The notes beneath the pieces are model-generated. The model was not told the DNA's origin, made no database searches, and saw only the letters and a list, made by a program, of their open reading frames with translations. From Streptomyces sp. TN58 (GTDB lineage Bacteria > Actinomycetota > Actinomycetes > Streptomycetales > Streptomycetaceae), in the NCBI RefSeq assembly GCF_001941845.1, contig NZ_CP018870.1, positions 7,292,001 to 7,356,000 of the forward strand: DNA of 64,000 nt, given 5' to 3'. Of this stretch, positions 5,098 to 23,269 are shown one piece after another; positions within the stretch are counted from its first letter, which is position 1, and every line of letters begins with the position of its first letter. A program made the translations under genes and the position numbers.

Positions 5098-5694
5098 CTA
5101 CGAGGCCGGCGGCGCGGGCGGTGCGGGCGGTGCGGGCGGCGCGGTGCGGCCGAGCCGGTGGAGGGTGGCCAGGACGTCGTCGAGCCAGGCGATCGTCATC
5201 CGCTCCTGCGCGATGCCCCCGCGCAGTACGACGTGCTGGAGTTCCTGGCCGGCGTCGAGCGGCGCCGGGGCGTCGGGCCCGGTGAAGTCGCGCAGTTCCC
5301 CGGCGAGATAGCGCGTCAGCCGGTCCCGGTGGGCCTGCTGGTGCCGTTCCACCTCGCGGATCAGGGACGCCGGGTCGTCGAAGGCCGCCCCGCGGATCTT
5401 CACGGCGAGGTCGTGCCGCAGGCTTTCCGGCTCGATCGGCTCGTGCAGCCACCGCGCGAGCGCGGCCCGGCCGGGACCGGCGGCCGAGTACTCCTTCTTG
5501 TCCGGCCGGCCCTGCTGCGGGATCGTACGGACGGCGAGCAGCCCGTCGCTCTCCATGCGCTTGAGCACGCGGTAGATCTGCTGGTGCGTGGCGGTCCAGA
5601 AGTAGCCGATCGACCGGTCGAAGCGGCGGGCCAGCTCATAGCCGGAGCCCGGCTTCTCCAGCAGGGAGACGAGGATCGCGTGTTCGAGCGCCAT
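5098..5694 (-). CDS. PadR family transcriptional regulator
   Basis: The 198-residue protein has an N-terminal PadR winged helix (ILVSLLEKPGSGYELARRF, THQQIYRVLKRMESDGLL, then a wing rich in Arg/Lys) and a C-terminal Vir_act_alpha_C-type helical dimerisation region (HQQAHRDRLTRYL). It ends in an Ala-Pro-Pro repeat written by tandem 9-bp units. A perfect 7-2-7 palindrome lies 15 bp before its ATG, so autorepression is likely. It precedes the acyl-CoA dehydrogenase gene. The effector is unknown. Confidence 0.9.
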   Translation of the reverse strand: MALEHAILVSLLEKPGSGYELARRFDRSIGYFWTATHQQIYRVLKRMESDGLLAVRTIPQQGRPDKKEYSAAGPGRAALARWLHEPIEPESLRHDLAVKIRGAAFDDPASLIREVERHQQAHRDRLTRYLAGELRDFTGPDAPAPLDAGQELQHVVLRGGIAQERMTIAWLDDVLATLHRLGRTAPPAPPAPPAPPAS

Positions 5695-5708
5695 ACCCCG
5701 ATCCTGCT

Positions 5709-5724
5709 ATGCAACTCGTTGCAT
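5709..5724. promoter_or_regulatory. Candidate PadR operator
   Basis: ATGCAAC-TC-GTTGCAT is a perfect 16-bp palindrome, AT-rich for this genome, placed just upstream of the padR start codon and downstream of the carotenoid oxygenase gene. PadR proteins commonly bind ATG-type dyads overlapping their own promoter, so autoregulation and control of padR plus the acyl-CoA dehydrogenase gene are inferred. Confidence 0.7.
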
Positions 5725-5783
5725 GGACAAGCGGCGGCGCCCAGGTGAGACGCGGCTCACCCGGGCGCCGCCAGGGGCGGGAT

Positions 5784-7235: not shown

Positions 7236-7730
7236 TCAGTCCCGCTCGGGGGCGGTGGTGGCGGTGGCGGCCGCAGCGGCCTCGGCCTCGGCCCGGACCT
7301 TCAGTGCGGCGAGCCAGGCGTCCAGCGACTGCCGCAGCACCTGTTCCATCTCCGTAGGCCGGGCCTCGACGGGTGCGCCGCTCCAGGACTCCTCGGTGCG
7401 GACCGTCACGGTGCCGGGCGCCGTCTCCTGGAACGTCCAGACGTGGATGCCGTCGATGCCGTGTGCCGGGCCGCCCCAAACGATCCGCTCGCCGGGGACG
7501 ACCTGGTGGACGGTGGAGGTGATGTCCAGGCCGTGGGTCAGCCAGCGGAAGGCGGTGCCGGGGGTCAGCGGGCCGGCGTACTCGACCCGGTCCACGTCCG
7601 TGTTCCAGTCGGGCCAGGCGGCGATGTCCGTGTGCAGGCTCCAGACCGTCGGGAGCGGGGCGTGCACGGTGGTTTCGACGCGGACGACGACCGGTGCTTC
7701 GGAGTCGACGGCGGTGGGGTGCGTGGTCAT
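7236..7730 (-). CDS. SRPBCC (START/Bet v1-like) protein
   Basis: The 164-residue protein has the SRPBCC opening strand and helix (VRVETTVHAPLPTVWSLHTDIAAWPDWN) and the central strands of the helix-grip cavity. It probably binds or acts on a hydrophobic ligand, as in polyketide cyclases or lipid carriers. It lies between the MFS exporter (28 bp upstream) and the carotenoid oxygenase (69 bp downstream), which suggests a shared hydrophobic substrate. The C-terminal ~15 residues are an Ala/Thr-rich tail. Confidence 0.8.
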   Translation of the reverse strand: MTTHPTAVDSEAPVVVRVETTVHAPLPTVWSLHTDIAAWPDWNTDVDRVEYAGPLTPGTAFRWLTHGLDITSTVHQVVPGERIVWGGPAHGIDGIHVWTFQETAPGTVTVRTEESWSGAPVEARPTEMEQVLRQSLDAWLAALKVRAEAEAAAAATATTAPERD

Positions 7731-10232: not shown

Positions 10233-12716
10233 GTGAGTTCCATGCCCTCTTCGTCTTCCGAGCACCCCTCGGGCCCCCCGCCCGGCCCGCTGTCGGGCCG
10301 GGGGGCGCAGCCGCAGCCCGCGCCTCCACCGGAGGCTCCGCCGCCGGTGCCGCCCCCGCCTCCGCCGCCGTCCCAACCGACGGAGCCTTCCGCGCCGCCC
10401 GCGGGCGGGAACGGGGAACGGCGGCCGAGGTCCCGCTGGCGGTCACGCAGGACCGTGGTGAGTGCGAGCACCGCGGCCGTCGTCGTCTCGGCGGCCGTCG
10501 TCAGCTTCACGGTGCTGGGAGGCAACACCGCGGCCGGCGGCGAGGTCTTCCTGGAGGCCGCCGCGGCTGCCGGGCCGGATCCCTTCACCCCGTCGACGGC
10601 CGTTGAACCGGAGCAGGCCGTGGCCGCGCCCGCGACGGCCGGGACGGTCCAGGGCGGTACGGGCGGCGCGCGCACCCTCGAAGTCGACGGCGGACACCCG
10701 GGCCTGTACGGCGGCACGCGGAACGTCGCGAGCTGTGACGTGGAAAAGCAGATCAAGTTCCTCGCTGAGCACGCGGACAAGGGCGGTGCCTTCGCCGCCA
10801 CCCTGGGCGTCCGGCAGGCCGGGATCCCCTCCTATCTGCGGTCGCTCACGCCGGTCCGGCTGGGCTGGGACACCCGGGTCACCAACCACGGGTACAGGAA
10901 CGACGCGCCCACGGGCTATCAGGCGATCCTGCAGGCCGGTACGTCGGTCCTGGTCGACGGACATGGCGTCCCCAGGGTCCGGTGTGCCTGCGGAAACCCG
11001 CTGACGCCGCCGGTCGCGGTCCGCGGCAAGCCCAGGATCAGCGGTACGGAGTGGTCCTCGTTCCGGTCCGCCGAGCTGGTGGCGGTCAAGCCCGCGGCGA
11101 AGCCGGTGAAGACGGTCACGGTCTTCGACCCGGCGCGCAAGAGCTGGTACCAGCGCCCGAGCGGCGCCGCAGGGGGCCGGTCCGACCGCGAGGTGGAGCC
11201 GCCGCCGAGCCAGCCGGCCGGCTCGTCGTACCCGGCACTGCCGCCGGCCCACCAGGGATCGGCCCGGACGAGCCCCGGCGACGCTGACACGAAGCCCCGG
11301 GAGCCGGCGAAGAGCCCGGACCGCGCGCCTGAACCGGCGCCGGGGGTTGCGCCCGGCCGCAACCCCGAGCCGGCCCAGGAGCCCGGCGGGCAGCACCACG
11401 GGGACAAGCAGCAGGCTCCGCAGAAGGACGCCCCGAAGCGGCCTGACACGACACGGGACGAGTCTCCGCACGAACGGGGCCCGGACCACGGCAGGGAACC
11501 CGGCAAGGCGCCGCCGGACAAAGCTCCGGAGAAGGCCCCTGAGAAGGCCCCTGAGAAGGCCCCGGACAAAGCTCCGGAGAAGGCCCCGGACACAGCTCCG
11601 GAGAAGGCTCCGGAGAAGGCCCCGGACACGGCTCCGGAGAAGGCCCCGGACACAACTCCGGACAAGGCCCCGGGCAAGGCCCCGCAGGAGGCTCCGGCGA
11701 AGGAGCAAAGCCCTGGCAGTCCGCCCGGGACGGTTCCAGGCGGGGAACGGGACCAGGGATCCGGCCGAGATCCCGGCAAGCGACCCGGCAAGGCGCGGGA
11801 CCGGGAATCGGGCACGGGCCAGGGGAAGGACCCCGGCAAGGCGCCGGACGAGACACCGGCGAAGGATCCGGGAACGGGCCAGGGCGAGAAGCCAGGCCGC
11901 GATCCCGCGGGCGTTCCCGGCAAGGCGCCCGGACAGGATTCAGAATCGGGCCCGGGCAAGTCCCCCGGCCAGGAACCGGGCCAGGAGCCGGGCACCGGCC
12001 AGGGGTCGGACCGGGTACCCGGCGGGGTGCCGGAGAAGGGCACGGGCAAGGCGCCCGGTCAGGAATCCGGCAAAGGCAAGGGCGAGGGCCGGGCGCCGGG
12101 TCAGGGATCGGGCACCGGCCAGGGCAAGGACCCGGAGACCACTCCCGGACGGCAGGAGCCGGGCTCCGGCGGCCAGGGGTCGAGCCGGCCGCCCGGGAAG
12201 GTGCCGCCGGAGCCCGGAGGCACCCCCGGCAAGGATTCGGGCAAGGCGCCGGGCCAGGGCACGGGCAAGGCGCCCGGCCACGGCACGGGTACGGGTAACG
12301 GCCAGAGCACGGACAAGACCCCCGGTCAGGAGCCCGGCGGCGGTTCGGGCAAGGCGCCCGGCAGCGGTACCGGCGAGGGCTCGGGCAAGGCGCCCGGCCA
12401 GGGCACGGGCAAGGCGCCCGGCCAGAGCACGGGCAAGGCACCCGATCCCGGCCCCGGCGACGGCACCGGCAAGGCGCCCGGCCACGAGGCGGGCAACGGC
12501 AGCGGCAAGGTCCAGGGCGGGGGACAGGGGCCGGGCTCGGGGCAGGCGCCCGCCCAGGAGACGGGCGGCGGAGACCAGAGCCGTGAGACCGGCCGGGACG
12601 GTCCTGGACCCGGGAGCAAGCGGGTCCAGGACGGCCCTGTCGGCGGCGGTACGCAACAGCAGCCGAGCAGAACCGGGGATTCGGGGAGCCGGGAGGACCA
12701 GCCGCTGCTCAGGTAG
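10233..12716 (+). CDS. DUF6777-like membrane-anchored protein with long Lys/Pro/Gly repeat tail
   Basis: Predicted 827 residues in four parts. Residues 1-65 are a Pro-rich cytoplasmic segment. About 73-95 is one membrane helix (VVSASTAAVVVSAAVVSFTVL). About 100-310 is an exported globular domain with GGHPGLYGGTRNVASCDVEK and two further cysteines in VRCACGNP. About 320-820 is an enormous low-complexity tail. The tail first repeats EKAP/DKAP/DTAP, then GKAPGQ- and GTGKAPG-type units, rich in Gly, Pro, Lys and Asp. I recall the globular part as DUF6777. There is no LPXTG-type sorting signal or C-terminal membrane helix, so the tail would extend into or through the cell wall. GTG at 10233 and ATG at 10242 are both possible starts. 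Confidence 0.8.
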   Translation: MSSMPSSSSEHPSGPPPGPLSGRGAQPQPAPPPEAPPPVPPPPPPPSQPTEPSAPPAGGNGERRPRSRWRSRRTVVSASTAAVVVSAAVVSFTVLGGNTAAGGEVFLEAAAAAGPDPFTPSTAVEPEQAVAAPATAGTVQGGTGGARTLEVDGGHPGLYGGTRNVASCDVEKQIKFLAEHADKGGAFAATLGVRQAGIPSYLRSLTPVRLGWDTRVTNHGYRNDAPTGYQAILQAGTSVLVDGHGVPRVRCACGNPLTPPVAVRGKPRISGTEWSSFRSAELVAVKPAAKPVKTVTVFDPARKSWYQRPSGAAGGRSDREVEPPPSQPAGSSYPALPPAHQGSARTSPGDADTKPREPAKSPDRAPEPAPGVAPGRNPEPAQEPGGQHHGDKQQAPQKDAPKRPDTTRDESPHERGPDHGREPGKAPPDKAPEKAPEKAPEKAPDKAPEKAPDTAPEKAPEKAPDTAPEKAPDTTPDKAPGKAPQEAPAKEQSPGSPPGTVPGGERDQGSGRDPGKRPGKARDRESGTGQGKDPGKAPDETPAKDPGTGQGEKPGRDPAGVPGKAPGQDSESGPGKSPGQEPGQEPGTGQGSDRVPGGVPEKGTGKAPGQESGKGKGEGRAPGQGSGTGQGKDPETTPGRQEPGSGGQGSSRPPGKVPPEPGGTPGKDSGKAPGQGTGKAPGHGTGTGNGQSTDKTPGQEPGGGSGKAPGSGTGEGSGKAPGQGTGKAPGQSTGKAPDPGPGDGTGKAPGHEAGNGSGKVQGGGQGPGSGQAPAQETGGGDQSRETGRDGPGPGSKRVQDGPVGGGTQQQPSRTGDSGSREDQPLLR
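11519..12510 (+). repeat. Degenerate short tandem coding repeats (KAP / GKAPG)
   Basis: Within the DUF6777-like gene, imperfect 12-bp units of the form GAGAAGGCCCCT or GACACAGCTCCG run from about 11519 to 11700. Irregular GGCAAGGCGCCCGGC-containing units then continue to about 12510. The units encode EKAP, DKAP, DTAP and GKAPG. Such arrays are prone to length change by slippage or recombination. Confidence 0.8.
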
Positions 12717-12860: not shown

Positions 12861-12888
12861 CAATCCTTCACTCCGTTCGTCACGAATC
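12861..12888 (+). promoter_or_regulatory. SigK-type promoter for the secreted Trp/His-rich protein
   Basis: CAATCC at 12861-12866, a 16-nt spacer, and CGAATC at 12883-12888 match the published mycobacterial SigK consensus (CCATCC, 16-17 nt, CCGAAT) closely. The same layout appears before sigK and before the FAD enzyme gene. The distance from the -10 element to the ATG at 12973 is 84 nt. A local drop in GC content is visible here. Confidence 0.65.
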
Positions 12889-12972
12889 CGTGGTGACGCT
12901 CCAGATGGTGAAGGAGCAGACGAAGCCGAATGCATGACGAACCTGTTCGACGAAAGGGAGGAGGCGAGCCAG

Positions 12973-13476
12973 ATGACCGCTTCGACGAACGTCAAGCGCG
13001 TGGCCGTCTCAGTCGCATCCACCGGGCTGCTGGCAGGCGGCTCGCTGCTGGGCCTGTCCGGTACGGCGAACGCCGCCCCGGCGACGGCGAACTCGATGCC
13101 CACCAGCACCAGCACCAGCACCAGCACCAGCACCAGCACCAACGACCGCGACCGTGACCACGATCACGACCGTGACCGCAACCGGGACGACCACTGGGAC
13201 CGCCACAACCGCCACGACCGCCACGACCGCTGGGACCGCCGTGACCACCACGACCGGTGCAGCTGGGTCAAGGGCCACTGGGTCACCGGCAAGTGGGGCA
13301 AGGGTCACTGGGAAGCCAAGTGGCACCCGGGCAGTTGGCTCCCCGGCCACCGGGACCACCACGGCAGGTGGCACGACGGCTGGTGGAGCAAGGGCTACTG
13401 GAAGCAGCACTGGGTGCCCGGCCACCCGGTGAGCCACTGGGTGCCCGGGCACTGGAACTGCCACGACAAGTGGTAG
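12973..13476 (+). CDS. Small secreted Trp/His/Asp-rich protein
   Basis: Predicted 167-residue exported protein. A Sec signal peptide (NVKRVAVSVASTGLLAGGSL, cleavage likely after GTANA near residue 36) is followed by a Thr-Ser repeat written by a hexanucleotide tract. A charged linker alternating Asp, Arg and His (about 58-95) comes next. The C-terminal ~70 residues repeat W-V-x-G-H-W type units (KGHWVTGKW, WVPGHPVSHW, WVPGHWNCHDKW). The repeats resemble YXWGXW/WVPGHW proteins of the cell envelope. Dense His and Asp suggest metal or cell-wall binding, which is inference. AAGGGAGGAGG precedes the ATG. It has its own SigK-like promoter and a strong terminator. Confidence 0.82.
   Translation: MTASTNVKRVAVSVASTGLLAGGSLLGLSGTANAAPATANSMPTSTSTSTSTSTSTNDRDRDHDHDRDRNRDDHWDRHNRHDRHDRWDRRDHHDRCSWVKGHWVTGKWGKGHWEAKWHPGSWLPGHRDHHGRWHDGWWSKGYWKQHWVPGHPVSHWVPGHWNCHDKW
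13102..13140 (+). repeat. ACCAGC hexanucleotide tract
   Basis: About six and a half copies of ACCAGC encode alternating Thr-Ser just after the signal peptide of the secreted Trp/His-rich protein. The tract is in frame, so copy number changes would alter linker length without a frameshift. Confidence 0.9.
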
Positions 13477-13490
13477 CCCCGCCCCCGGCC

Positions 13491-13530
13491 CGGCGGGGGT
13501 TCCGGAGCCACGGCCCCGGAACCCCCGCCG
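13491..13530 (+). terminator. 15-bp perfect hairpin terminator
   Basis: The arms 13491-13505 and 13516-13530 pair perfectly (CGGCGGGGGTTCCGG and complement) around a 10-nt loop, 15 bp after the stop codon of the secreted protein gene and before the sigK promoter. It insulates the two units. Confidence 0.8.
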
Positions 13531-13603
13531 ATCCACCCGGCGCGCCCCCCTTACCCAGAAGCTGCGCCGGCACGCTCATCTGCTCCGTTTGCCAAAAATC
13601 CGG

Positions 13604-13631
13604 CCATCCGCACGCACTTGCGCTACGAAGA
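13604..13631 (+). promoter_or_regulatory. SigK-type promoter upstream of sigK
   Basis: CCATCC at 13604-13609 is an exact match to the mycobacterial SigK -35 element. After a 16-nt spacer comes CGAAGA at 13626-13631, an approximate -10. The GTG of the sigma factor gene is 143 nt downstream. This implies autoregulation. Confidence 0.65.
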
Positions 13632-13774
13632 ACCCTCTGAGCCCCCGACGGCCCGGTTCCACGTAACAGGGCAAGGACAAGGACAAGGACCACCATGCGA
13701 CGGACACCCCGCCCCCGGCAGGCCGGCACCGGCCGCTGCCCCTACGCCCCGTCGCCGCAGCCGGAGCCCGCCCT

Positions 13775-14395
13775 GTGAACCACCCACTCCCGTTCGGCCC
13801 AGGCCGCACCGGCCGCACCGGCCGCACCGGCCGTGCCAGTCACGCCGGCCGCAGCGACCTCTGCGAGGTCATGGACGAGGTGGCGCACGGCGACAAACAC
13901 GCTTTCTCCGTGCTCTACGACGCGCTCGCACCCATGGTGTTCGGCATCGTGGTCAGAGTCGTACGCGACCGGGCCCAGTCGGAGGAGGTCGCACAGGAGG
14001 TCATGATCGACCTGTGGCGGCAGGCCGCCCGCTACCGGGCCGACCACGGCAGCGTCACCGCGTGGGCGGCGACGATCGCCCACCGGCGGGCCGTGGACCG
14101 GGTCCGCTCCGCCCAGGCGTCCGCCGACCGGGAACAGGCCCAGGCGGCGCGCGAGCACCAGACCGCGTTCGACGAGGTCTCCGAGCAGGTCGAGACCCGC
14201 CTGGAGAGCGAGCAGGTACGCCGCTGCATGCGCGGCCTGACCGAACTCCAGCGCCAGGCAGTGACTTTGGCCTACTACCGCGGCCTGACCTACCGTGAGG
14301 TCGCCGAAGCCCTGCGCACGCCGCTGCCGACCGTCAAGACACGCATGCGCGACGGGCTGATCCGGCTCCGCGACTGCATGGGGGTGACCACATGA
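13775..14395 (+). CDS. sigK: ECF sigma factor, SigK type
   Basis: The 206-residue protein has sigma-70 region 2 (FSVLYDALAPMVFGIVVRVV, SEEVAQEVMIDLWRQAARY) at about 44-100 and region 4 (LTELQRQAVTLAYYRGLTYREVAEAL, PTVKTRMRDGLIRLRD) at about 150-202. It has no extra domain, as in ECF factors. The first 25 residues carry a Gly-Arg-Thr repeat. It overlaps the anti-sigma gene by 4 bp (ATGA), so translation is coupled. The neighbouring lipid genes reproduce the mycobacterial sigK locus, which is the main reason for the SigK name. When released from the anti-sigma it should recognise the promoter copies at 12861, 13604 and 15159. Confidence 0.9.
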   Translation: MNHPLPFGPGRTGRTGRTGRASHAGRSDLCEVMDEVAHGDKHAFSVLYDALAPMVFGIVVRVVRDRAQSEEVAQEVMIDLWRQAARYRADHGSVTAWAATIAHRRAVDRVRSAQASADREQAQAAREHQTAFDEVSEQVETRLESEQVRRCMRGLTELQRQAVTLAYYRGLTYREVAEALRTPLPTVKTRMRDGLIRLRDCMGVTT

Positions 14396-15144
14396 AGCAA
14401 CACCACTCCGACGTCCACACCCTCGCCGCCGCCTACGCCCTCAACGCCCTCGACCCCGCCGAGCGGAAGGCGTTCACCGACCACCTGCCGCACTGCCAGG
14501 CGTGCCGCGACGAGGTGGCCGAGTTCGAGGCGACCGCCGCGCGCCTGGCGGACGCCGCGGCGGAGTACCCGCCGACCGCGCTGAAGCACCACGTCATGGC
14601 CGCGGTCGACGGAGTACGCCAACTGCCCCCGCGCGTCCCCCACACCGCGCCGAGCGTGACGGTCGGCAGCGCACTGCGGCGCCGGGCGGTTCCCCTGGCG
14701 CTGGCCGCCAGCGTGGTGGCGGCCGCGTCGTTCGCCGGCCTGGCCGCCTGGCAGAACCAGCACATCGAGCAGCACCGGCAGCGGGCCGCCCAGGCCGAGC
14801 AGCGCCTCGACGACGTCAGCACCGTCCTGGCCGCGCCCGACGCCCGCGCCGCCCACGGCCGGGCCAGCAACGGAGCGGCCACCACCGTCGTCGCCTCCAA
14901 GCGGCAGAACAGGGCCGTCTTCACCGCCGCCGGACTGCCCGCACCCGCCCCCGGCACGACCTACCAGCTCTGGCTCGACCACGACGGGACGATGCGCCCG
15001 GCCGGGTTCATCCGCCAGGACGGCACGGTCCTCGTCGACGGGGACACCGCCGGCGCCGGTGCCCTCGGACTCACCGTCGAACCGGCCGGGGGATCCCGCC
15101 GCCCCACCTCCGCCCCCCTGCTCCTGATCACCCTGCCCACCTGA
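14392..15144 (+). CDS. rskA: Zinc-finger anti-sigma factor, RskA type
   Basis: Predicted 250-residue membrane protein. The N-terminal anti-sigma domain has an early His and the zinc motif H-x3-C-x2-C in DHLPHCQACRDEV (about residues 30-40). One membrane helix follows at about 102-122 (VPLALAASVVAAASFAGLAAW). The exported C-terminal domain has the RskA pattern (AVFTAAGLPAPAPGTTYQLW, PAGFIRQDG). It should hold SigK inactive until regulated proteolysis or a redox/envelope signal releases it. It is translationally coupled to sigK by a 4-bp overlap. Confidence 0.92.
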   Translation: MKQHHSDVHTLAAAYALNALDPAERKAFTDHLPHCQACRDEVAEFEATAARLADAAAEYPPTALKHHVMAAVDGVRQLPPRVPHTAPSVTVGSALRRRAVPLALAASVVAAASFAGLAAWQNQHIEQHRQRAAQAEQRLDDVSTVLAAPDARAAHGRASNGAATTVVASKRQNRAVFTAAGLPAPAPGTTYQLWLDHDGTMRPAGFIRQDGTVLVDGDTAGAGALGLTVEPAGGSRRPTSAPLLLITLPT

Positions 15145-15158
15145 CGGCCACCTTCCAC

Positions 15159-15186
15159 CAATCCCCCCGCCCCTCTGCTGCGAAGT
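15159..15186 (+). promoter_or_regulatory. SigK-type promoter upstream of the lipid genes
   Basis: CAATCC at 15159-15164, a 16-nt spacer, then CGAAGT at 15181-15186. The layout is the same as before sigK and before the secreted protein gene. The GTG of the FAD enzyme is 50 nt downstream. It would give the lipid-modification genes a second, SigK-driven promoter inside the operon. Confidence 0.65.
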
Positions 15187-15236
15187 AGGGGTGAGCGACC
15201 GCACCCGGCGGCGCGTTGAGTGGCGGGAGTGCTGAG

Positions 15237-16502
15237 GTGGAACACCGGAAAGCGGCGGTGATCGGCGCCGGGGTCGCGGGCCTGACGGCCGCCCACGTCC
15301 TGGCGCGCTCGTACGAGGTCACCCTCTACGAGGCCGACGGCCGCCTCGGCGGCCACGCCCACACCCATGAGTTCTCCGGCCCGGACGGGCGGCCCATGGG
15401 TGTGGACTCGGGATTCATCGTCCACAACGAGCGCACCTATCCGACCCTGCTACGGCTCTTCCGCGAGCTGGGAATCACCACCCAGGACGCCGAGATGAGC
15501 ATGTCGGTACGGTGCGACGGCTGCGGCCTGGAGTACGCGGGCGCCCGCGGCCCGGCCGGCCTGCTCACCGGCCGGGCGGCGCTGCGCGGCCGCTACCTGC
15601 GCCTGCTGGCCCAGGTACCCGTCTTCCACCGCAGGGCCCTCCGGCTGCTCGCCGACCCGCCCTCCCACCACGTCACCCTGGGCGACTTCCTCCGCGAAGG
15701 CCGCTTCTCCCCGTACTTCGTCAGCCATTTCGCCCTCCCGCTGGTCTCCGCGGTGTGGTCGTGCCCCGCACGCACCGCACTGTCCTACCCGGCCGCGCAC
15801 CTCTTCACCTTCCTCCGGCACCACGGCCTCCTGTCGGTCACGGGCTCCCCGCAGTGGAAGACCGTCACCGGCGGGTCGGCCGCCTACGTCGAGGCCGTGG
15901 CCAAGAGCGTGCACCGCGTCCGCACCTCCAGTCCCGTGCGTACCGTCCACCGGGCCGCCCGCGGCTCCGGCGCCTGGATATCCACCGAGAACGGCGCCAC
16001 CGACGGCTACGACGCCGTCGTGATCGCCACCCACCCCGACCAGGCCCTGCGCCTGCTCGCCGACCCCACCCCGGACGAACGCCGGCTCCTCGGCGCCTTC
16101 ACCTACGCACCCAACCCCACGGTCCTGCACACCGACACGAGCCTGCTGCCCCGCTCGCCCCGCGCCCGCGCCTGCTGGAACTACCACCTGCCGGACTGCG
16201 CCCCCTCCGCCGAAGCCGTCCGCGTCAGCTACGACATGAAGCGCCTGCAGAACCTGCCCGACGGCGCCGACTACGTGGTGACCCTCGGAGCCGACGACCG
16301 CGTCGACCCCGGCCGGGTGGTGCGCCGCATGCTCTACGAACACCCCGTCCACACGCCCGCCTCGGTCGCGGCGCAGAAGGAACTGCCGCTCCTGAACACC
16401 GGCGTGACCGCGTACGCCGGAGCGTGGCAGGGCTGGGGCTTCCACGAGGACGGCTGCCGCTCCGGCGTGGCAGCCGCCCGCGCCCTGGGGGTGCGCTGGT
16501 GA
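15237..16502 (+). CDS. FAD/NAD(P)-binding amine-oxidase-like protein of the SigK locus
   Basis: Predicted 421-residue flavoprotein. The N-terminal FAD motif AVIGAGVAGLTAAHVLARSY is followed by the acidic end of strand 2 and LGGHAHTHEF. A GVDSGFIVHNERTYP segment follows, typical of the predicted NAD/FAD-binding protein family (COG2907). I chose GTG at 15237, preceded by GGGAG at good spacing; an upstream TTG at 15216 is less likely. It resembles Rv0449c of the M. tuberculosis sigK locus. In proteobacteria relatives accompany DUF1365, fatty-acid methylase and DUF1295 genes in lipid modification under oxidative stress. A fatty-acyl oxidase or desaturase role is inferred. Its stop overlaps the next start by 4 bp. 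Confidence 0.85.
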   Translation: MEHRKAAVIGAGVAGLTAAHVLARSYEVTLYEADGRLGGHAHTHEFSGPDGRPMGVDSGFIVHNERTYPTLLRLFRELGITTQDAEMSMSVRCDGCGLEYAGARGPAGLLTGRAALRGRYLRLLAQVPVFHRRALRLLADPPSHHVTLGDFLREGRFSPYFVSHFALPLVSAVWSCPARTALSYPAAHLFTFLRHHGLLSVTGSPQWKTVTGGSAAYVEAVAKSVHRVRTSSPVRTVHRAARGSGAWISTENGATDGYDAVVIATHPDQALRLLADPTPDERRLLGAFTYAPNPTVLHTDTSLLPRSPRARACWNYHLPDCAPSAEAVRVSYDMKRLQNLPDGADYVVTLGADDRVDPGRVVRRMLYEHPVHTPASVAAQKELPLLNTGVTAYAGAWQGWGFHEDGCRSGVAAARALGVRW

Positions 16503-17245
16503 CCCGGGCAGCGGCACCCGCCGCCGCGCTGTACGAATGCCTGGTCGTCCACACCCGTACCGCACCCCTGCGCCACGACGTCCGGCACCGCACCTACCTG
16601 TGGTGCGTGGACCTCGACCGGCTCCCGGCCCTGCCCGGCGCGCTGCGCCCGCTCGCCCGGTTCGACCCGCGTGACCACTTCGCCGGCCGGGCACCCACGA
16701 TCCGTGCCGGCCTGGAGGAGTTCCTCGCGTCCCGCGACATCGACATCGAGGGCGGGCGCGTGATGATGCTCGCCCACGCCCGCGTCCTCGGATTCGTCTT
16801 CAACCCCCTCAGCGTGTACTGGTGCCACGACGCCTCCGGATCCCTGGTGTGCGTCGTCGCCGAGGTCCACAACACGTACGGGCAGCGGCACTGCTACCTG
16901 CTGCACCCCGACGCGGGCGGCCGGGCGAGGGCGGAGAAGCGGTTCTACGTCTCCCCCTTCTTCCCGGTCGAGGGCCACTACCGGATGCGCCTGCCGCTCC
17001 CCGAGGACCGCCTCCACCTGACCGTGCACCTCGACACCGAGGCCGGCCGGCCGTTCACCGCCACCGTGCGCGGACGCGCCCGGCCCGCAACGGCCCGCGG
17101 CCTCCTACGGGCCGCCGCCCGCCGGCCCTGGTCGACCGCCGCCGTGTGGGCGGGGATCCGCCTCCACGGCATCCGCCTGCTCCTTAAAGGCCTGCCCGTA
17201 CAGCCCCGCCCCCGGCACACCCCGCAGAAGGGAATGGTTCCGTGA
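16499..17245 (+). CDS. DUF1365 family protein
   Basis: The 248-residue protein matches the DUF1365 family seen as Rv0448c in the mycobacterial sigK locus. Signature segments are LYECLVVHTRTAPLRHDVRH at the N-terminus, MLAHARVLGFVFNPLSVYWC near residue 90, EVHNTYGQRHCYLL near residue 121, and KRFYVSPFFPVEGHY near residue 145. The GTG at 16499 overlaps the preceding stop (GTGA). The biochemical role is not established in my knowledge. Conserved linkage places it with acyl-chain modification of membrane lipid. Confidence 0.88.
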   Translation: MTRAAAPAAALYECLVVHTRTAPLRHDVRHRTYLWCVDLDRLPALPGALRPLARFDPRDHFAGRAPTIRAGLEEFLASRDIDIEGGRVMMLAHARVLGFVFNPLSVYWCHDASGSLVCVVAEVHNTYGQRHCYLLHPDAGGRARAEKRFYVSPFFPVEGHYRMRLPLPEDRLHLTVHLDTEAGRPFTATVRGRARPATARGLLRAAARRPWSTAAVWAGIRLHGIRLLLKGLPVQPRPRHTPQKGMVP

Positions 17246-18693
17246 CCCGCCCCGCCACCAGGCCAGACCACCAGCTCCGGACAGCCCACGACCGCCACCG
17301 GACCCCACACGACCACCACCGGACGCCCGACGACCACCCCCGGACCGCCGACCACCAGGTACGCCCGTCCGACCGGGGGCCGCTCCCGTCCGAACCCGAA
17401 GGCGAACCCGAGCCCGAGCCCCGGACACCCGACCCCGGCGCCGTGATCCGAGGTCAGGTCTCCGCCGCCCGCTGGCCGGACGTGGCCCGGCTGCCGCCCG
17501 CCCGGCGCGCCCGGACCGCGGTCGCCGCCCACCTGGTGGGCCGGGCCCTGGACAGGCTGCCGCTGGACGTCAACCCCGGCACCGCCGGCGGCCGCTCCGC
17601 CACCCGATGCCGCCCGGACATCACCATCCACGACCCGGAGGCCTTCTTCCGGCGCATCGGACGCGACGGCCTGATCGGCTTCGGCGAGTCCTACATGGCC
17701 GGCGAATGGGACAGCGGTGACCTGACCGGCCTGCTGACCGTCCTCGCCACCCACGTCGACGACCTCGTCCCGGCCCGGCTGCGGGGACTGCGTCCGCTGT
17801 GGGCGCCGTCCCGCCCCCGCCGCGACCGCAACACCCGCAGCGGCGCACGCCGGAACATCCACCACCACTACGACCTGTCCAACGACCTGTTCGCGGCCTT
17901 TCTCGATCCGACCCTGACCTATTCCTCCGCCGTCTTCAGCGTCTTCCCCGCCCGGTCCGAAGACCTCCCCGCCGCCCAACAGCGCAAGATCGACCGCCTC
18001 CTGGACCTCGCGCACGTCACGGACGGCACCGAACTCCTGGAGATCGGGACCGGTTGGGGAGAGCTGGCCCTGCGCGCCGCCGCCCGCGGCGCACGCGTCA
18101 CCACCCTCACCCTCTCCGCCGAACAGGCCGAGCTCGCCCGCGCCCGGATCCACGCCGCCGGACTCACCGACCGCGTCGACGTCCAACTGCGCGACTACCG
18201 GGACGCCGAAGGCCGCTACGACGCCGTCGTCAGCGTCGAGATGATCGAGGCGGTCGGCGCCGAGTACTGGCCCTCCTATTTCGCAGCCCTGCGCGGTGCA
18301 CTCCGGCCCGGAGGCCGCGTCGCCCTCCAGACGATCACCATGGGACACCGGCAGATGCGCAACACCGCCGCCACCCGCACCTGGATCAGCAAGTACGTCT
18401 TCCCCGGCGGTGTGATCCCCTCCCGCCGCGCCATTGCCGAACACGCGGCGGCGGCCGGCCTGCGCATGGTGTCCGACGAGGGATTCGTCGAGCACTACGC
18501 GCAGACCCTGCGCCTGTGGCGGGAGCGTTTCACCGCGAACCGGCAGACCGTCACCGACCTCGGTTTCGACACCGTCTTCCAGCGGATGTGGGAGTTCTAC
18601 CTGGCCTACTCGGAAGCCGGCTTCCGCTCCCGCTACCTGGACGTCCGCCAGATCGCCCTCGCCGAGAAGCCCCCGAGGGCGGCACGGCCGTGA
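17242..18693 (+). CDS. Cyclopropane-fatty-acyl-phospholipid synthase family methyltransferase
   Basis: Predicted 483-residue SAM methyltransferase. The first ~60 residues are a low-complexity His/Asp/Pro/Glu leader. A CFA-type N-terminal domain follows (IGFGESYMAGEWDSGDLTGLL). The catalytic domain has HHHYDLSNDLFAAFLDPTLTYSSAVF, the SAM motif LLEIGTGWGELALRAA near residue 265, SVEMIEAVG, and FPGGVIPS. It should transfer a methyl or methylene group from SAM to the double bond of an unsaturated phospholipid acyl chain. It corresponds to ufaA1 (Rv0447c) in the sigK locus, which has been linked to 10-methyl branched acid formation. The ATG overlaps the preceding stop by 4 bp. Confidence 0.88.
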   Translation: MTRPATRPDHQLRTAHDRHRTPHDHHRTPDDHPRTADHQVRPSDRGPLPSEPEGEPEPEPRTPDPGAVIRGQVSAARWPDVARLPPARRARTAVAAHLVGRALDRLPLDVNPGTAGGRSATRCRPDITIHDPEAFFRRIGRDGLIGFGESYMAGEWDSGDLTGLLTVLATHVDDLVPARLRGLRPLWAPSRPRRDRNTRSGARRNIHHHYDLSNDLFAAFLDPTLTYSSAVFSVFPARSEDLPAAQQRKIDRLLDLAHVTDGTELLEIGTGWGELALRAAARGARVTTLTLSAEQAELARARIHAAGLTDRVDVQLRDYRDAEGRYDAVVSVEMIEAVGAEYWPSYFAALRGALRPGGRVALQTITMGHRQMRNTAATRTWISKYVFPGGVIPSRRAIAEHAAAAGLRMVSDEGFVEHYAQTLRLWRERFTANRQTVTDLGFDTVFQRMWEFYLAYSEAGFRSRYLDVRQIALAEKPPRAARP

Positions 18694-19511
18694 ACGGCAC
18701 CGCGTGGCACGCCCTCGGCGCCGGCCTCGCCGCCGGCGCGGCCGTCGCGACGGCCGTACTGCTCACCGCGTTCGCCATCGGCACGCACCTGCGCCTGCAC
18801 CGCGTCGCCGACATCGCCTGGGGCCTCGCCTTCAGCGGTGTGGCCGTCACCACCTACCTGCTGTCCGCCGGACACGGAGACCCCGAAAGGCGGCTGCTGG
18901 TCGCCGCCGCGACCGTCGTGTGGGGCCTGAGGCTGTCCGCGCACCTCGCATGGCGCTCCCGCGGCCACGGAGAGGACCCGCGCTACACCGCCCTCCTCGA
19001 CCAGGCACGCGGAAACCGGACCTGGTACGCGCTGCGCACCGTCTACCTCCTCCAGGCCGCGCTGGTCTGGCTGGTCTCCCTGCCCGTCCAGGCCGCCTCG
19101 TACGCGGACGCCCCGGTGGGAGTCCTCGGAGTGCTCGGGCTCGCCGTGTGGGCCGCGGGAGTCGGCTTCGAGGCGGTGGGCGACCATCAGCTGGCCCGGT
19201 TCAGGGAGGACCCGGCCAACCGGGGCCGCATCATGGACGGCGGCCTGTGGGCCTGGACCCGGCACCCCAACTACTTCGGCGACTGCCTCGTCTGGTGGGG
19301 CCTGTACCTGCTGGCCTGCACCAGCCTCACGTCGGCGCTGCCGCTCCTGGTCTCCCCGGTCGTCATGACGGCGCTGCTGACCGCCGGCAGCGGCAAACGC
19401 CTGCTGGAGAAGCACATGGGGGACCGCCCCGGATACGCCGAGTACGCTGCCCGCACGAGCGGGTTCCTGCCTCTGCCACCCCGCCACGACCTCTCGGAAC
19501 TCAGGAGGTGA
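18690..19511 (+). CDS. DUF1295 (steroid-reductase-fold) membrane protein
   Basis: Predicted 273-residue protein with about six hydrophobic helices and DUF1295 landmarks: RVADIAWGLAFSGVAV near residue 32, WGLRLSAHLAWRSRGHGEDPRY near residue 75, QLARFREDPANRGRIMDGGLWAWTRHPNYFGDCLVWWG near 167-205, and a C-terminal GKRLLEKHMGDRPGYAEY. The family is related to steroid 5-alpha-reductases and ICMT-like enzymes that reduce or methylate membrane substrates. It corresponds to Rv0446c. GTG at 18690 overlaps the preceding stop (GTGA). A role reducing a methylene intermediate made by the upstream methyltransferase is inferred, not shown. Confidence 0.87.
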   Translation: MNGTAWHALGAGLAAGAAVATAVLLTAFAIGTHLRLHRVADIAWGLAFSGVAVTTYLLSAGHGDPERRLLVAAATVVWGLRLSAHLAWRSRGHGEDPRYTALLDQARGNRTWYALRTVYLLQAALVWLVSLPVQAASYADAPVGVLGVLGLAVWAAGVGFEAVGDHQLARFREDPANRGRIMDGGLWAWTRHPNYFGDCLVWWGLYLLACTSLTSALPLLVSPVVMTALLTAGSGKRLLEKHMGDRPGYAEYAARTSGFLPLPPRHDLSELRR

Positions 19512-19515
19512 GCCG

Positions 19516-20283
19516 GTGAACCCCATACCGGAGCCCCCAGGCGGACACGGCGGGGGCGGGGAGCCCGCCCCGGAGCCGTCCGGGCCGGCCCTGGTCCCCG
19601 CCTGCGGCCACCGGCTGTCGCGGCGGACCGAAGCCGCCGTCCTGTTGCTGCACGGCGGCCGCGCGGACGCCCTGCAGGCACCGCCCCGGCTGAACCTGCC
19701 CGCCCTGCGCATGCGGCCGTTCGCGACCGCCGTCACGCGCGCCACCGCGCACGCCGACGTGCTCGTCGCCCACGTCCGCTACCGCCACCGCGGCTGGAAC
19801 GGCGGCCACGCGCATCCGGTCGCCGACACCCTCCGGGCCCTCGACGAACTCCGCGCCGCCGCCGGACCGGTACCCGTCGTCCTCGTCGGCCACTCCATGG
19901 GCGGCCGAGCCGCCCTGCGCGCCGCCGCAGACCCGCAGGTAGTGGGAGTTGTCGCCCTCGCCCCCTGGTGCCCGCCGGACGAACCGGCCGCCCACCTGCG
20001 CGCCCGGGCGGTCGTCGCCCTCCACGACGAGAGCGACCGCGTCACCCGGGCGGCGGACACCTGGGCGTACCTCACGCGTGCCCGTGAGGCCGGGGCACGG
20101 GTCCACGGCGTCCGGATGCCCCGCGGAGGGCACGCCATGATCGGCGGCGCTGGCCCGTGGCACCGGATCACGGCCGGAGCCGCGGCGGCGCTCCTGGGAC
20201 TCGGCCCGTATCCGGCCGGCCTCGCCGCTCCCGCCGACCCCGCCGGGCACACGGCGGGAACGGACCGGCCCCCGGCCCGGTGA
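19516..20283 (+). CDS. Alpha/beta hydrolase at the end of the SigK operon
   Basis: Predicted 255-residue hydrolase. The nucleophile elbow GHSMGGRAAL lies near residue 125, the acid is probably the second Asp of HDESDRV near residue 175, and the His is in RGGHAMIGG near residue 208. AVLLLHGGRAD gives the oxyanion strand. The start is 4 bp after the DUF1295 stop, so it is part of the operon; this partner is not in the classical mycobacterial sigK cluster as I know it. A lipase or thioesterase role toward the modified lipid is inferred. Confidence 0.82.
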   Translation: MNPIPEPPGGHGGGGEPAPEPSGPALVPACGHRLSRRTEAAVLLLHGGRADALQAPPRLNLPALRMRPFATAVTRATAHADVLVAHVRYRHRGWNGGHAHPVADTLRALDELRAAAGPVPVVLVGHSMGGRAALRAAADPQVVGVVALAPWCPPDEPAAHLRARAVVALHDESDRVTRAADTWAYLTRAREAGARVHGVRMPRGGHAMIGGAGPWHRITAGAAAALLGLGPYPAGLAAPADPAGHTAGTDRPPAR

Positions 20284-22407
20284 TCACCGGGCCCGCGCCG
20301 CCCGCTCGGTGCGCGCGCCGGAGCCGCCGTCCGGTCGGGACAGCGCGCTGGGCCACCAGGCGCGCGGCCCGATGTCGACGATGAGGGCCGGCACCAGCAG
20401 GGAGCGCACGACGAGGGTGTCCAGGAGGACCCCGAACGCGACGATGAAGGCGATCTGCACGAGGAAGGCCAGCGGGATCACCATCAGCGCGGCGAAGGTG
20501 GCGGCGAGGACGACGCCCGCGGAGGTGATGACCCCGCCCGTCGTGACGAGGCCCCGCAGCACGCCCGCGCGGGTGCCCGAGCGGACGGTCTCCTCACGCA
20601 CCCGAGACATCAGGAAGATGTTGTAGTCGACGCCGAGGGCGACCAGGAAAACGAACCCGTACAGCGGCACCGAGGCGTCCGTGCCGCTGAAGCCCAGGAG
20701 GTTCCCGAAGACCAGCGCGGACACGCCGAGCGTCGCGAGGAAGTTCAACGCGACCGTCGCCACCAGCAGGACGGGCACGAGCACCGACCGCAGGAGCGCG
20801 ATCAGGATCAGCAGGATGATGCCGAGAACGATCGGGACGATCACGGTACGGTCGCGTGCCGAGGTCTGCTGGGTGTCGAACTGCTGGGCTGTGTAACCCC
20901 CGACGAGCGCGTCCGCCCCCGGCACCGCGTGCACGCGCTCGCGCAGCCGCTCGACCGTCCGCTTCGCGGCGTCGCTGTCGGCGGCCGCCTCCAGCGTGGC
21001 GTCGAACCGCACCCGGCCGTCCACCACGAGCGGAGCGCCCGGGCCGCCCGGCCGGCCGCCCGCGGTGACCGGTACGACCGCGGCGACCCCGTCCGTGCCC
21101 TCGGCGGCCGCCCGTACCTCGGCCGCCCGGTCGGCGTCCGCGATGACGACGGCCGGATTGCCCGAGCCGCCGGGGAAGTGCCGCGCGAGGGTCTGCTGGG
21201 CGCCGACCGAAGGGGCGTCGTTGACGAAGATCTCGTCCAGCGGCACACCCTTGGACGACAGGGCGGGGGAGAAGCCCGCCAGCACCACGAGCAGCACGGA
21301 CGTGGACACCCACACGCGCCGCGGCGACCGGTCGATCAGCCCGGCGATCCGGCGCCACACGCCGCGCCCCTCGCCCGCGGCGTCGGCCGGCCCGGGCACG
21401 GCGGGCCAGTAGGCGGTGCGGCCCAGCAGCACCAGCACCGCCGGCAGGAAGGTCAGCGAGCTCAGCACCGCGCAGACGATGCCGATCGCACCCACCGGCC
21501 CGAGCGCCCGGTTGTTCGTCAGATCGCTCGCCAGCAGGGCCAGCAGCCCCAGCGCCACCGTCGCCGCGCTGGCGGTGACCGCCCCCGCCGACCGGCGCAC
21601 GGCGGCCCACGCCGCCTCCGCCCGGTCGCCCCGTACGGCCAGCTCCTCACGGAAGCGCGCCGCGACGAGCAGGGCGTAGTCCGTCGAGGCACCGATCACC
21701 AGGATCGACAGGATCCCTTGGACCTGGCCGTCCACGCGGACCAGGCCCCGGTCGGCCAGCGCGTACACCACCGCGCAGGCCAGGCCCAGCGCGAACACCG
21801 CACTGACGATGATCACCAGGGGTAGCAGCACACTGCGGTAGACCAGCAACAGGATCAGCAGCACCGCTCCGAGGGCCACCCCCACCAACAGCCCGTCGAT
21901 CCCCGCGAACGCGTCCGACAGGTCCGCCTGGGTGGCCGCCGGCCCGGCGATCCCCACCGAGGTGCCCGGCACCCGCTGCGCCGCCTCCCGCACCTCGTCC
22001 AGCACCGCCGGAAGCTCCTCGCCCAGGTCGGGCGCGAGCGGCACGACCGCCTGCACGGCCAGCCCGTCGGCGGAGACCACCGCCGGCGAGGGCGGACCGG
22101 TGACCCCGGGCCGGCCGGCCAGACCCCCGACGGCCCGGGCCGCCGCCTCCTGCTGCGCGGCCGTCACCCGGGCCCCGTCCGCCGTCCACACCACGATCGC
22201 CGGAACGGACTGCGCGCCCTCGAACGCCTTGCGGGCTTCGATGACCTTCGTCGACTCGGCACTCCGCGGCAGGAACGCCGCCTGGTCGTTCGTGGCGACC
22301 TCGCTCAGCTTCCCCGCGTACGGTCCGAGCGTCCCGCCGATGCCGAGCCATACGAGCAGCAGGGCGAGGGGAACGATCCAGCGGGCCCAGCGGGGTGTGT
22401 TTCTCAA
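20284..22407 (-). CDS. MMPL family RND transporter
   Basis: Predicted 707-residue membrane protein with the MMPL duplication: a helix at each half start, two large extracytoplasmic loops, and two bundles of five helices. Markers are GASTDYALLVAARFREEL near residue 250 and the matching ALGVDYNIFLMSRVREE near residue 600. The latter Asp-Tyr pairs carry the proton relay. I chose TTG at 22407 because GAGGA lies 6-7 nt before it and the first helix follows at once. Members export lipids, siderophores or drugs. Its stop codon abuts the hydrolase stop codon of the convergent SigK operon. Confidence 0.85.
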   Translation of the reverse strand: MRNTPRWARWIVPLALLLVWLGIGGTLGPYAGKLSEVATNDQAAFLPRSAESTKVIEARKAFEGAQSVPAIVVWTADGARVTAAQQEAAARAVGGLAGRPGVTGPPSPAVVSADGLAVQAVVPLAPDLGEELPAVLDEVREAAQRVPGTSVGIAGPAATQADLSDAFAGIDGLLVGVALGAVLLILLLVYRSVLLPLVIIVSAVFALGLACAVVYALADRGLVRVDGQVQGILSILVIGASTDYALLVAARFREELAVRGDRAEAAWAAVRRSAGAVTASAATVALGLLALLASDLTNNRALGPVGAIGIVCAVLSSLTFLPAVLVLLGRTAYWPAVPGPADAAGEGRGVWRRIAGLIDRSPRRVWVSTSVLLVVLAGFSPALSSKGVPLDEIFVNDAPSVGAQQTLARHFPGGSGNPAVVIADADRAAEVRAAAEGTDGVAAVVPVTAGGRPGGPGAPLVVDGRVRFDATLEAAADSDAAKRTVERLRERVHAVPGADALVGGYTAQQFDTQQTSARDRTVIVPIVLGIILLILIALLRSVLVPVLLVATVALNFLATLGVSALVFGNLLGFSGTDASVPLYGFVFLVALGVDYNIFLMSRVREETVRSGTRAGVLRGLVTTGGVITSAGVVLAATFAALMVIPLAFLVQIAFIVAFGVLLDTLVVRSLLVPALIVDIGPRAWWPSALSRPDGGSGARTERAARAR

Positions 22408-22488
22408 GGCGAGTCCTCGGGTCTTGACAGGTGCGTCGGCCGGTGAAGACCGTCCATGGCAACGACGGTGCCTCATCTCCCCTTCCGG

Positions 22489-22515
22489 GAAAGCACCCGA
22501 TCGGGTTGCACTTTC
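22489..22515. promoter_or_regulatory. Palindrome between MMPL and reductase genes
   Basis: A perfect 12-bp palindrome ACCCGATCGGGT at 22495-22506 is flanked by GAAAG (22489-22493) and its complement CTTTC (22511-22515). It lies in the 247-bp divergent region and is a candidate operator for either gene. No regulator gene is adjacent. Confidence 0.45.
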
Positions 22516-22654
22516 TGCGCACGGACTGCTCCGAGACGGCGCCGGAGCCGACGCAGCCGCCGTGCGGGTGAATGCCCCGGGTAGCGGCCACCGCGTGCCC
22601 TTGGATGGGCCCGTACGCGGCAACGGCCCCGACCACCAGCTCCCGGAGACCGCC

Positions 22655-23269
22655 ATGAGGAAGATCAAAGCGCAGCTGTTCATCTCGCTCGACGGCGTCG
22701 TCGAGGCACCCGACCAGTGGCACTTCCCCTACTTCGACGAGGACATGGGCGCCGCCGTCGACGCCACCCTCGGCCGCGCCGACACCCTGCTGCTCGGACG
22801 CCGAACCTACGACAGCTTCGCGGGCGCCTGGCCCGAACGGGAGGCAGCCGGCGGGGAGGACGCGCCGTTCGCCAGGGTGCTCGGCGACGCCCGCAAGATC
22901 GTGGTGTCCAACAGCCCGCTCACCTTCACCTGGCGCAACTGCGAACAGCTCGCCGGCGACCTCACCGCGGGAGTCGCCGCCCTCAAGGAGGAGCCCGGCG
23001 CCGATACACCCGTGTGGATCAGCGGCTCGGTCTCCGTCGTACGCCGACTGATCGCCGACGGGCTCCTGGACGAGCTGAACCTCCTCCTCCACCCGATCGC
23101 CGTACGCACCGGCATGCGTCTGTTCGAGCAGGACGCCACCCCGGTCCCGCTTGAGCTGGTGTCCGCCGAGACCTTCCGCACCGGCGTGCTGAACCTCTCC
23201 TACGCCCTGGCCGCCGCGCCCGGCGAGGCGACGTACGAAGACGCCAAGTCCCACCTGCCCCAGCAGTAG
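22655..23269 (+). CDS. DHFR/RibD C-terminal domain reductase
   Basis: The 204-residue protein has the RibD_C/DHFR-like fold pattern: KIKAQLFISLDGVVEAPDQW at the start, DTLLLGRRTYDSFAGAWP near residue 42, KIVVSNSPLTF near residue 80, a WISGSVSVVRRLIADGLLDEL NADPH-binding region, and LLLHPIAVRTGMRLF. These NADPH-dependent proteins reduce pterin or flavin-precursor-like substrates, but the stand-alone members are mostly uncharacterised. GGAG precedes the ATG. The ClC antiporter gene starts 3 bp after its stop, so the two are co-transcribed. Confidence 0.86.
   Translation: MRKIKAQLFISLDGVVEAPDQWHFPYFDEDMGAAVDATLGRADTLLLGRRTYDSFAGAWPEREAAGGEDAPFARVLGDARKIVVSNSPLTFTWRNCEQLAGDLTAGVAALKEEPGADTPVWISGSVSVVRRLIADGLLDELNLLLHPIAVRTGMRLFEQDATPVPLELVSAETFRTGVLNLSYALAAAPGEATYEDAKSHLPQQ

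Follow-up and report, generated by a model that had tools for sequence, protein, structure and literature searches.

A 64,000-nucleotide (nt) stretch of the Streptomyces sp. TN58 genome (NZ_CP018870.1, positions 7,292,001 to 7,356,000; hereafter the window, whose own numbering is used below) encodes the extracytoplasmic function (ECF) sigma factor SigK with its membrane anti-sigma factor RskA, and carries three copies of a SigK-type promoter motif within 2.3 kb. The copies stand before sigK itself, before the gene for a His/Trp-rich protein and at the head of a lipid-modification operon. We consider it likely that these parts make up one autoregulated module, in which SigK would act through the three promoters on its own gene, on a furan-lipid operon and on a secreted protein in response to lipid oxidation.

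A scan of the window for C[AC]ATCC-N16-CGAA[TG] (CMATCC-N16-CGAAK, 27 nt) gave three matches and no more, each on the + strand. Predicted promoter 1 (12861..12887; -35 box CAATCC at 12861-12866, -10 box CGAAT at 12883-12887) ends 85 nt before the start of the secreted-protein gene at 12973. Predicted promoter 2 (13604..13630; CCATCC at 13604-13609, CGAAG at 13626-13630) lies 144 nt from the GTG of sigK at 13775, and predicted promoter 3 (15159..15185; CAATCC at 15159-15164, CGAAG at 15181-15185) is housed in the 71-nt gap between rskA and the first start codon of the operon, its -10 box 30 nt from that TTG at 15216. A sequence-only reading of this DNA had described three sites with an exact 16-nt spacer, each ahead of a gene; spacer, strand and position all held, while the end coordinates it gave were each one base too large. 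Dinucleotide shuffles of the window (n = 100) averaged 0.05 matches and never gave three; the whole genome (7.585 Mb) holds 24 matches with spacers of N15-17 and 10 at N16, three of the latter at this locus, and its N16 density predicts 0.003 sites per 2.3 kb. A sigma-70 promoter scan gave a single match, within the DUF1365 gene of the operon, and found no terminator.

The motif, its spacing and its position are conserved across the actinobacteria examined. SigK relatives came from one scan of named genomes, of which the best 80 of 580 loci were used, with 400 nt upstream plus 60 scanned before sigK; the loci are related, some share one genome and two (L061 and L067) resemble Streptomyces DNA despite another label, so these counts are not independent trials. 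The strict motif preceded sigK at N16 in 63 of the 80 loci, at N12, N15 and N17 in one locus each, and at no other spacer from 8 to 26. A reversed pattern and two permuted patterns had no match at any spacer in these loci. The reverse complement occurred upstream of sigK at N16 in 20 of 80 and once at N8, the N16 matches fitting divergent promoters. Across all 1.417 Mb of the 80 loci, N16 gave 147 matches, N17 gave 10 and every other spacer at most 7, and before sigK the motif is conserved inside upstream DNA that has diverged.

Start codons in relatives point to where transcription would begin. An ATG or GTG lies exactly 7 nt past the -10 box in 41 of 163 distinct N16 sites (25%), and 40 of these 41 open frames of at least 100 amino acids (aa); the control, 6026 CGAA[TG] sites without a -35 box, has 1.4% at the same offset. 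Many relatives appear to be leaderless, with starts at the distance from CGAA that the sequence-only reading had called for (5-8 nt), and a purine occupies offset 7 in 146 of 163 sites. From the start codons at +7, transcription starts are predicted near 12895 for promoter 1 and 15193 for promoter 3, with about 13638-13639 predicted for promoter 2. A second peak at offset 5 (69 of 163 sites) includes only 23 codons that open at least 100 aa, which indicates that it reflects in part a conserved GGGTG element rather than a start codon. GTG at offset 5 (window 12888-12895 and 15186-15193) is kept at the secreted-gene and FAD-gene sites of close relatives (FAD, flavin adenine dinucleotide), often opening a frame of 14 codons, and is perhaps an element of the initiation region.

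Within this genome the strict motif points to a local regulon, as the sequence-only reading had proposed: seven N16 matches lie outside the locus, against a background mean of 6.6, so genome-wide use is unsupported here. The genus at large shows an excess, with a mean of 10.3 N16 matches in 78 SigK-positive genomes (match at E <=1e-30) and 6.6 in 23 SigK-negative ones (101 genomes; Mann-Whitney p = 2e-4; three of the 23 are <90% complete). In relatives, further target classes include molybdopterin oxidoreductases (23 called genes), fasciclin lipoproteins (9), DUF4331-like proteins (5) and others; one oxidoreductase and one fasciclin lipoprotein were scanned against domain models, and the DUF4331-like name is our own reading. 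Our home-made open reading frame (ORF) caller misses genes: it assigned one to 146 of 204 site records, a total that counts duplicates and own-genome loci, and overlooked the window's secreted-protein gene. In TN58 itself, no CGAA-type site lies upstream of the molybdopterin oxidoreductase gene (G000:C1:6421879-6423420), the nearest look-alike ending in CGAGT inside a coding-like frame, and a fasciclin search of the genome gave no match. In this genome, two motif matches near one end of the chromosome have mirror-image counterparts near the other (G000 172649/7412359 and 60069/7524940), suggesting a terminal inverted repeat no shorter than 172 kb. Contigs labelled Microtetraspora glauca (loci L061 and L067) carry Streptomyces-like sigK loci, L061 having sites in common with S. 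filamentosus (L032), and are probably contamination.

The sigma factor and its partner are what the sequence-only reading took them for. SigK (sigK, 13775..14395, + strand; 206 aa from GTG) scores 266.5 bits with the curated NCBIfam SigK model NF007228, above the cut-off of 226; among solved structures its closest relative is M. tuberculosis SigK (4nqw), with R. sphaeroides sigma-E (2q1z) second. Two cysteines of SigK, Cys151 and Cys201, have cysteine counterparts in 4nqw, and the pair is present in 79 of 81 loci, the window included. The sigK ORF overlaps by 4 nt that of rskA (14392..15144, + strand), whose product combines a zinc-type motif (H9/H31/C35/C38), one strongly hydrophobic stretch at about residues 99-120 (by hydropathy only) and, behind that stretch, an RskA_C domain (PF10099; 98.3 bits against 29.4). 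RskA_N (PF22618) stayed below its cut-off (22.2 against 27 bits), zf-HC2 passing instead (26.8 against 22.2), and H31/C35/C38 recur in 77 of 80 loci. The closest named matches are from Streptomyces, led by S. virginiae (94% identity for SigK). In PMC7509140, the M. tuberculosis SigK cysteines are 133 and 183, and the pair occurs in 94% of ECF18 and 56% of ECF19 members; RskA inhibits SigK and can activate it too; and SigK sites are highly conserved among Actinobacteria, with orthologues of other species reading the mpt70 promoter. Both the zinc-type motif of RskA and the cysteine pair of SigK could be redox-sensitive.

In 44 of 81 loci, a short ORF upstream of sigK ends in a stop codon that overlaps the sigK start; it is present in 25 of 26 close relatives, where shuffles predict 4.4. 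We rejected it as a peptide, as the differences by codon position (840, 1332 and 963, over the 19 of equal length among 25) fit the sigK frame. In 19 of 29 non-window loci an in-frame ATG lies 22-24 codons before the GTG of sigK, and the substitutions there look like those of coding sequence. The matching window codon is ACG (13700-13702), and the window's SigK may start later or from a non-standard codon.

Promoter 3 heads a run of five genes on the + strand: an FAD-dependent amine-oxidase-type enzyme (UfaD-like, 15216..16502, its likely true start being by eye the better-placed GTG at 15237 behind GGGAG), a DUF1365 protein (UfaO-like, 16499..17245), a CMAS/CFA-type S-adenosylmethionine (SAM) methyltransferase (UfaM-like, 17242..18693), a DUF1295 protein (18690..19511, overlapping the methyltransferase gene by 4 nt) and an alpha/beta hydrolase (19516..20283), the last co-directional gene. 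These family assignments come from Pfam and NCBIfam models. From sigK to the hydrolase gene, neighbours overlap by 4 nt or sit 4 nt apart, with the gap between rskA and the FAD gene excepted. An MMPL-family transporter gene (20284-22683) converges on the end of the operon, and MMPL matches also occur near sigK in several relatives.

The motif follows this operon in relatives. Of 23 non-window loci with an FAD match, a script found 22 to have an N16 site within 30-122 nt upstream of the extrapolated FAD start, the sole exception (L071) being a fragment; 8 of these 22 (L047, L049, L050, L051, L054, L056, L075 and L094) carry the operon and sigK on opposite strands. Five actinobacterial plasmid records with the trio of FAD, DUF1365 and methyltransferase genes, all outside the set that defined the motif, were also opened, and four had an N16 site at the operon head: Tsukamurella (L118), Streptomyces NBC_00069 (L121, ending in CGAAC), Rhodococcus erythropolis (L122) and Streptomyces NBC_00158 (L124). 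The stretches shown for L122 and L124 have no annotated sigK. In S. clavuligerus (L123), which has the FAD gene, both DUF1365 and the site are missing. On L124, a gene matching a MerR regulator with a B12-binding domain (10791-11822) converges on the FAD-DUF1365-methyltransferase operon, a possible light-sensing link. Linkage extends to the genus: DUF1365 occurs in 21 of 61 genomes, 20 of which have SigK (Fisher p = 0.02), and in 18 of those 20 the two genes are at most 16 kb apart by the coordinates given.

The operon probably makes methylated furan fatty acids from membrane unsaturated acyl chains, to judge from its gene families. In R. sphaeroides, the SAM methylase UfaM, the DUF1365 protein UfaO and UfaD, for which an NAD-FAD-binding domain is predicted, suffice to make a methylated furan fatty acid, RPA2571-2569 of R. 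palustris have the same activity, and the R. sphaeroides product disappears under singlet oxygen (PMC7380195). According to PMC6852236, furan-fatty-acid genes form part of the core sigma-E/ChrR regulon, and ChrR turnover under singlet oxygen depends on them. An FAD enzyme, a DUF1365 protein and a SAM acyl methyltransferase are likewise co-encoded in the window, whose operon adds DUF1295 and the hydrolase. Plasmids of Rhizobium tropici (L119) and Azospirillum (L120) carry the trio, in the window's gene order, next to genes for a sigma factor and for an anti-sigma factor of the ChrR family. Window proteins are 39 and 41% (FAD enzyme), 31 and 38% (DUF1365) and 42 and 43% (methyltransferase) identical to those of L119 and L120, respectively, and the SigK motif is absent from the head of both operons. 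Two unlike sigma/anti-sigma pairs therefore appear to govern one biosynthetic module. A Mesorhizobium plasmid (L125) lacks the trio, its DUF1365 gene overlapping a short photolyase gene, and a DUF1365 search gave no named UfaO among the matches listed (120 of 4960).

Promoter 1 precedes a gene for a 167-aa His/Trp-rich protein (12973..13476, + strand) with GHW-type repeats and, by eye, a signal-peptide-like start; the protein is probably secreted. Pfam (0.001) assigned no family to it or to three homologues scanned (P0005, P0011 and P0013), and its best NCBIfam model, ZrgA, scored 27 bits against a cut-off of 185. A large protein search returned 12 relatives at E 0.001 among 2268 candidates, and the 11 named ones are all Streptomyces. 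A source labels P0011 and P0013 as BcpO-related WXXGXW repeat proteins; no model match placed the window protein in that family. The high content of His, Trp, Asp and Arg suggests binding to metal or to a surface. In 392 genus genomes we found 20 matches at E 1e-8. In each of the nine best (E <=9.4e-20, counting that of the window) the motif lies upstream of the gene and on its strand, and two of these genes (L128 and L134) are megabases away from the SigK matches of their genome or on different contigs. The eleven weaker matches (E 3e-14 to 7e-9), which align from residue 85 on, have no motif within 1.5 kb on either side. The motif is thus linked to the family proper and not to neighbourhood alone. 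With 9 of 9 family members here, 63 of 80 loci before sigK and 22 of 23 before the operon, the counts favour the earlier proposal that SigK-type sites drive all three targets.

At four loci (L031, L032, L034 and L061, near 7618-7700) a SigK site precedes a different gene at the secreted-gene position, which in L031 encodes an RsbW-like protein with an HATPase domain. Just upstream of the window's locus, a DUF6777 protein (10233-12716) has a long C-terminal run of Gly/Lys/Pro-rich repeats.

Taken as one mechanism, SigK would be held at the membrane by RskA. On inactivation of RskA, SigK-RNA polymerase would initiate at the three C[AC]ATCC-N16-CGAA[TG] promoters, about 7-9 nt past the -10 box. 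Its targets would be sigK-rskA, giving autoregulation; the FAD-DUF1365-methyltransferase-DUF1295-hydrolase operon, giving methylated furan fatty acids; and the probably secreted His/Trp-rich protein. By analogy with alphaproteobacterial sigma-E/ChrR, the likely stimulus would be oxidative damage to membrane lipid. A wider and more tentative idea, which we hold at somewhat less than even odds, is that SigK/RskA is the actinobacterial counterpart of sigma-E/ChrR: the anti-sigma factor would sense (photo)oxidised lipid, furan fatty acids would quench the oxidant and feed the signal, the secreted protein would be the extracellular arm, and two different sigma/anti-sigma families would each have recruited the module.

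Several observations weigh against this account. The strict motif is missing before sigK in 17 of 80 loci; of these, 8 have CGAAC or CGAAA at N16, 2 start with ACATCC, 1 has N15, 1 has N17 and 5 have none that we found. The window's sigK site has T, no purine, at the inferred +1, with G one base further on, and all three window promoters are non-leaderless, the start inference being borrowed from relatives. On the plasmid of Streptomyces NBC_01435 (L146), which has the trio, DUF1295, sigK and rskA, no site stands before the FAD gene and sigK is preceded, by eye, only by CAATCC-N16-CGGAT. Of 61 genomes, 27 have SigK but no DUF1365, so SigK must have roles beyond furan fatty acids. In PMC7509140, M. 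tuberculosis sigK is autoregulated via Rv0449cp and the promoter directly before it is called not SigK-regulated, whereas in the window the motif directly precedes sigK. Findings on M. kansasii in a 2023 paper that calls the stimuli of SigK-RskA obscure (PMC9861118) cut both ways: in favour of the account, light raises mpk83 and mpk70, both with putative SigK sites, and against it, dipZ, also with such a site, does not respond to light.

The product of the operon leaves most room for another answer. The sites could be real SigK promoters whose operon makes a cyclopropane or methyl-branched acid, which we judge possible but unlikely: the models that fit the methyltransferase best are those for cyclopropane synthases, though its scores stay under their cut-offs, and DUF1365 function is shown only for alphaproteobacterial UfaO in the literature examined (PMC7380195), whereas the FAD-DUF1365-methyltransferase order is that of two ChrR-linked operons and every gene is homologous to its counterpart there.

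The reader of the sites is less in doubt. ECF specificities overlap, and the TN58 genome has six more sigma-factor-like matches at E <1e-8, so another ECF sigma factor of similar specificity might read the sites, SigK being one of several inputs; these six are only 28-30% identical, however, and the motif is found with sigK across genera and is over-represented in SigK-positive genomes, which makes a different reader improbable. That the sites are chance, or conserved DNA with a meaning other than promoters, would suit the background level of the seven remaining N16 matches. It is hardly credible given the spacer specificity, the start-codon peak at +7 and the conservation within diverged upstream DNA, the spacer and start-codon tests in particular speaking against it. 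We retain SigK-dependent promoters that would control a probable furan-lipid operon as the preferred explanation.

The module shares with the mycobacterial SigK-RskA regulon (M. tuberculosis sigK-rskA and mpt70/mpt83) its protein families, cysteine pair and promoter type, and differs from it in the lack of a fasciclin match in this genome, in the zinc-type motif kept by RskA and in its new secreted target. On L146, a fasciclin-like frame ends (5641-5732, by eye) directly before the FAD operon, which indicates that MPT83-type and furan-type genes can share one place. With the R. sphaeroides sigma-E/ChrR (ECF11) singlet-oxygen circuit it shares the association of FAD, DUF1365 and methyltransferase genes with a sigma/anti-sigma pair, but the window's anti-sigma factor is of the RskA type, well short of the ChrR model TIGR02451 (31.4 bits against 124.5). 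R. capsulatus RpoE/ChrR is described as closer to SigK/RskA than to R. sphaeroides RpoE/ChrR (PMC7074977).

Both SigK/RskA and the fact that its sites are conserved in Actinobacteria have been published (PMC7509140); what is added here is a new member, a new target and a testable function. In the extracts that our literature search returned, no paper assigned SigK/RskA a role in furan fatty acids, and Veyrier 2008 and Lemke 2014 may note the link. The promoter definition, an N16 spacer with a predicted start 7-9 nt on, is sharp enough to be used for finding SigK targets, and the operon provides a candidate function for DUF1365 and DUF1295 genes in actinobacteria. Tying the regulon to a product that would be sensitive to singlet oxygen would give SigK-RskA a concrete, testable signal and output.

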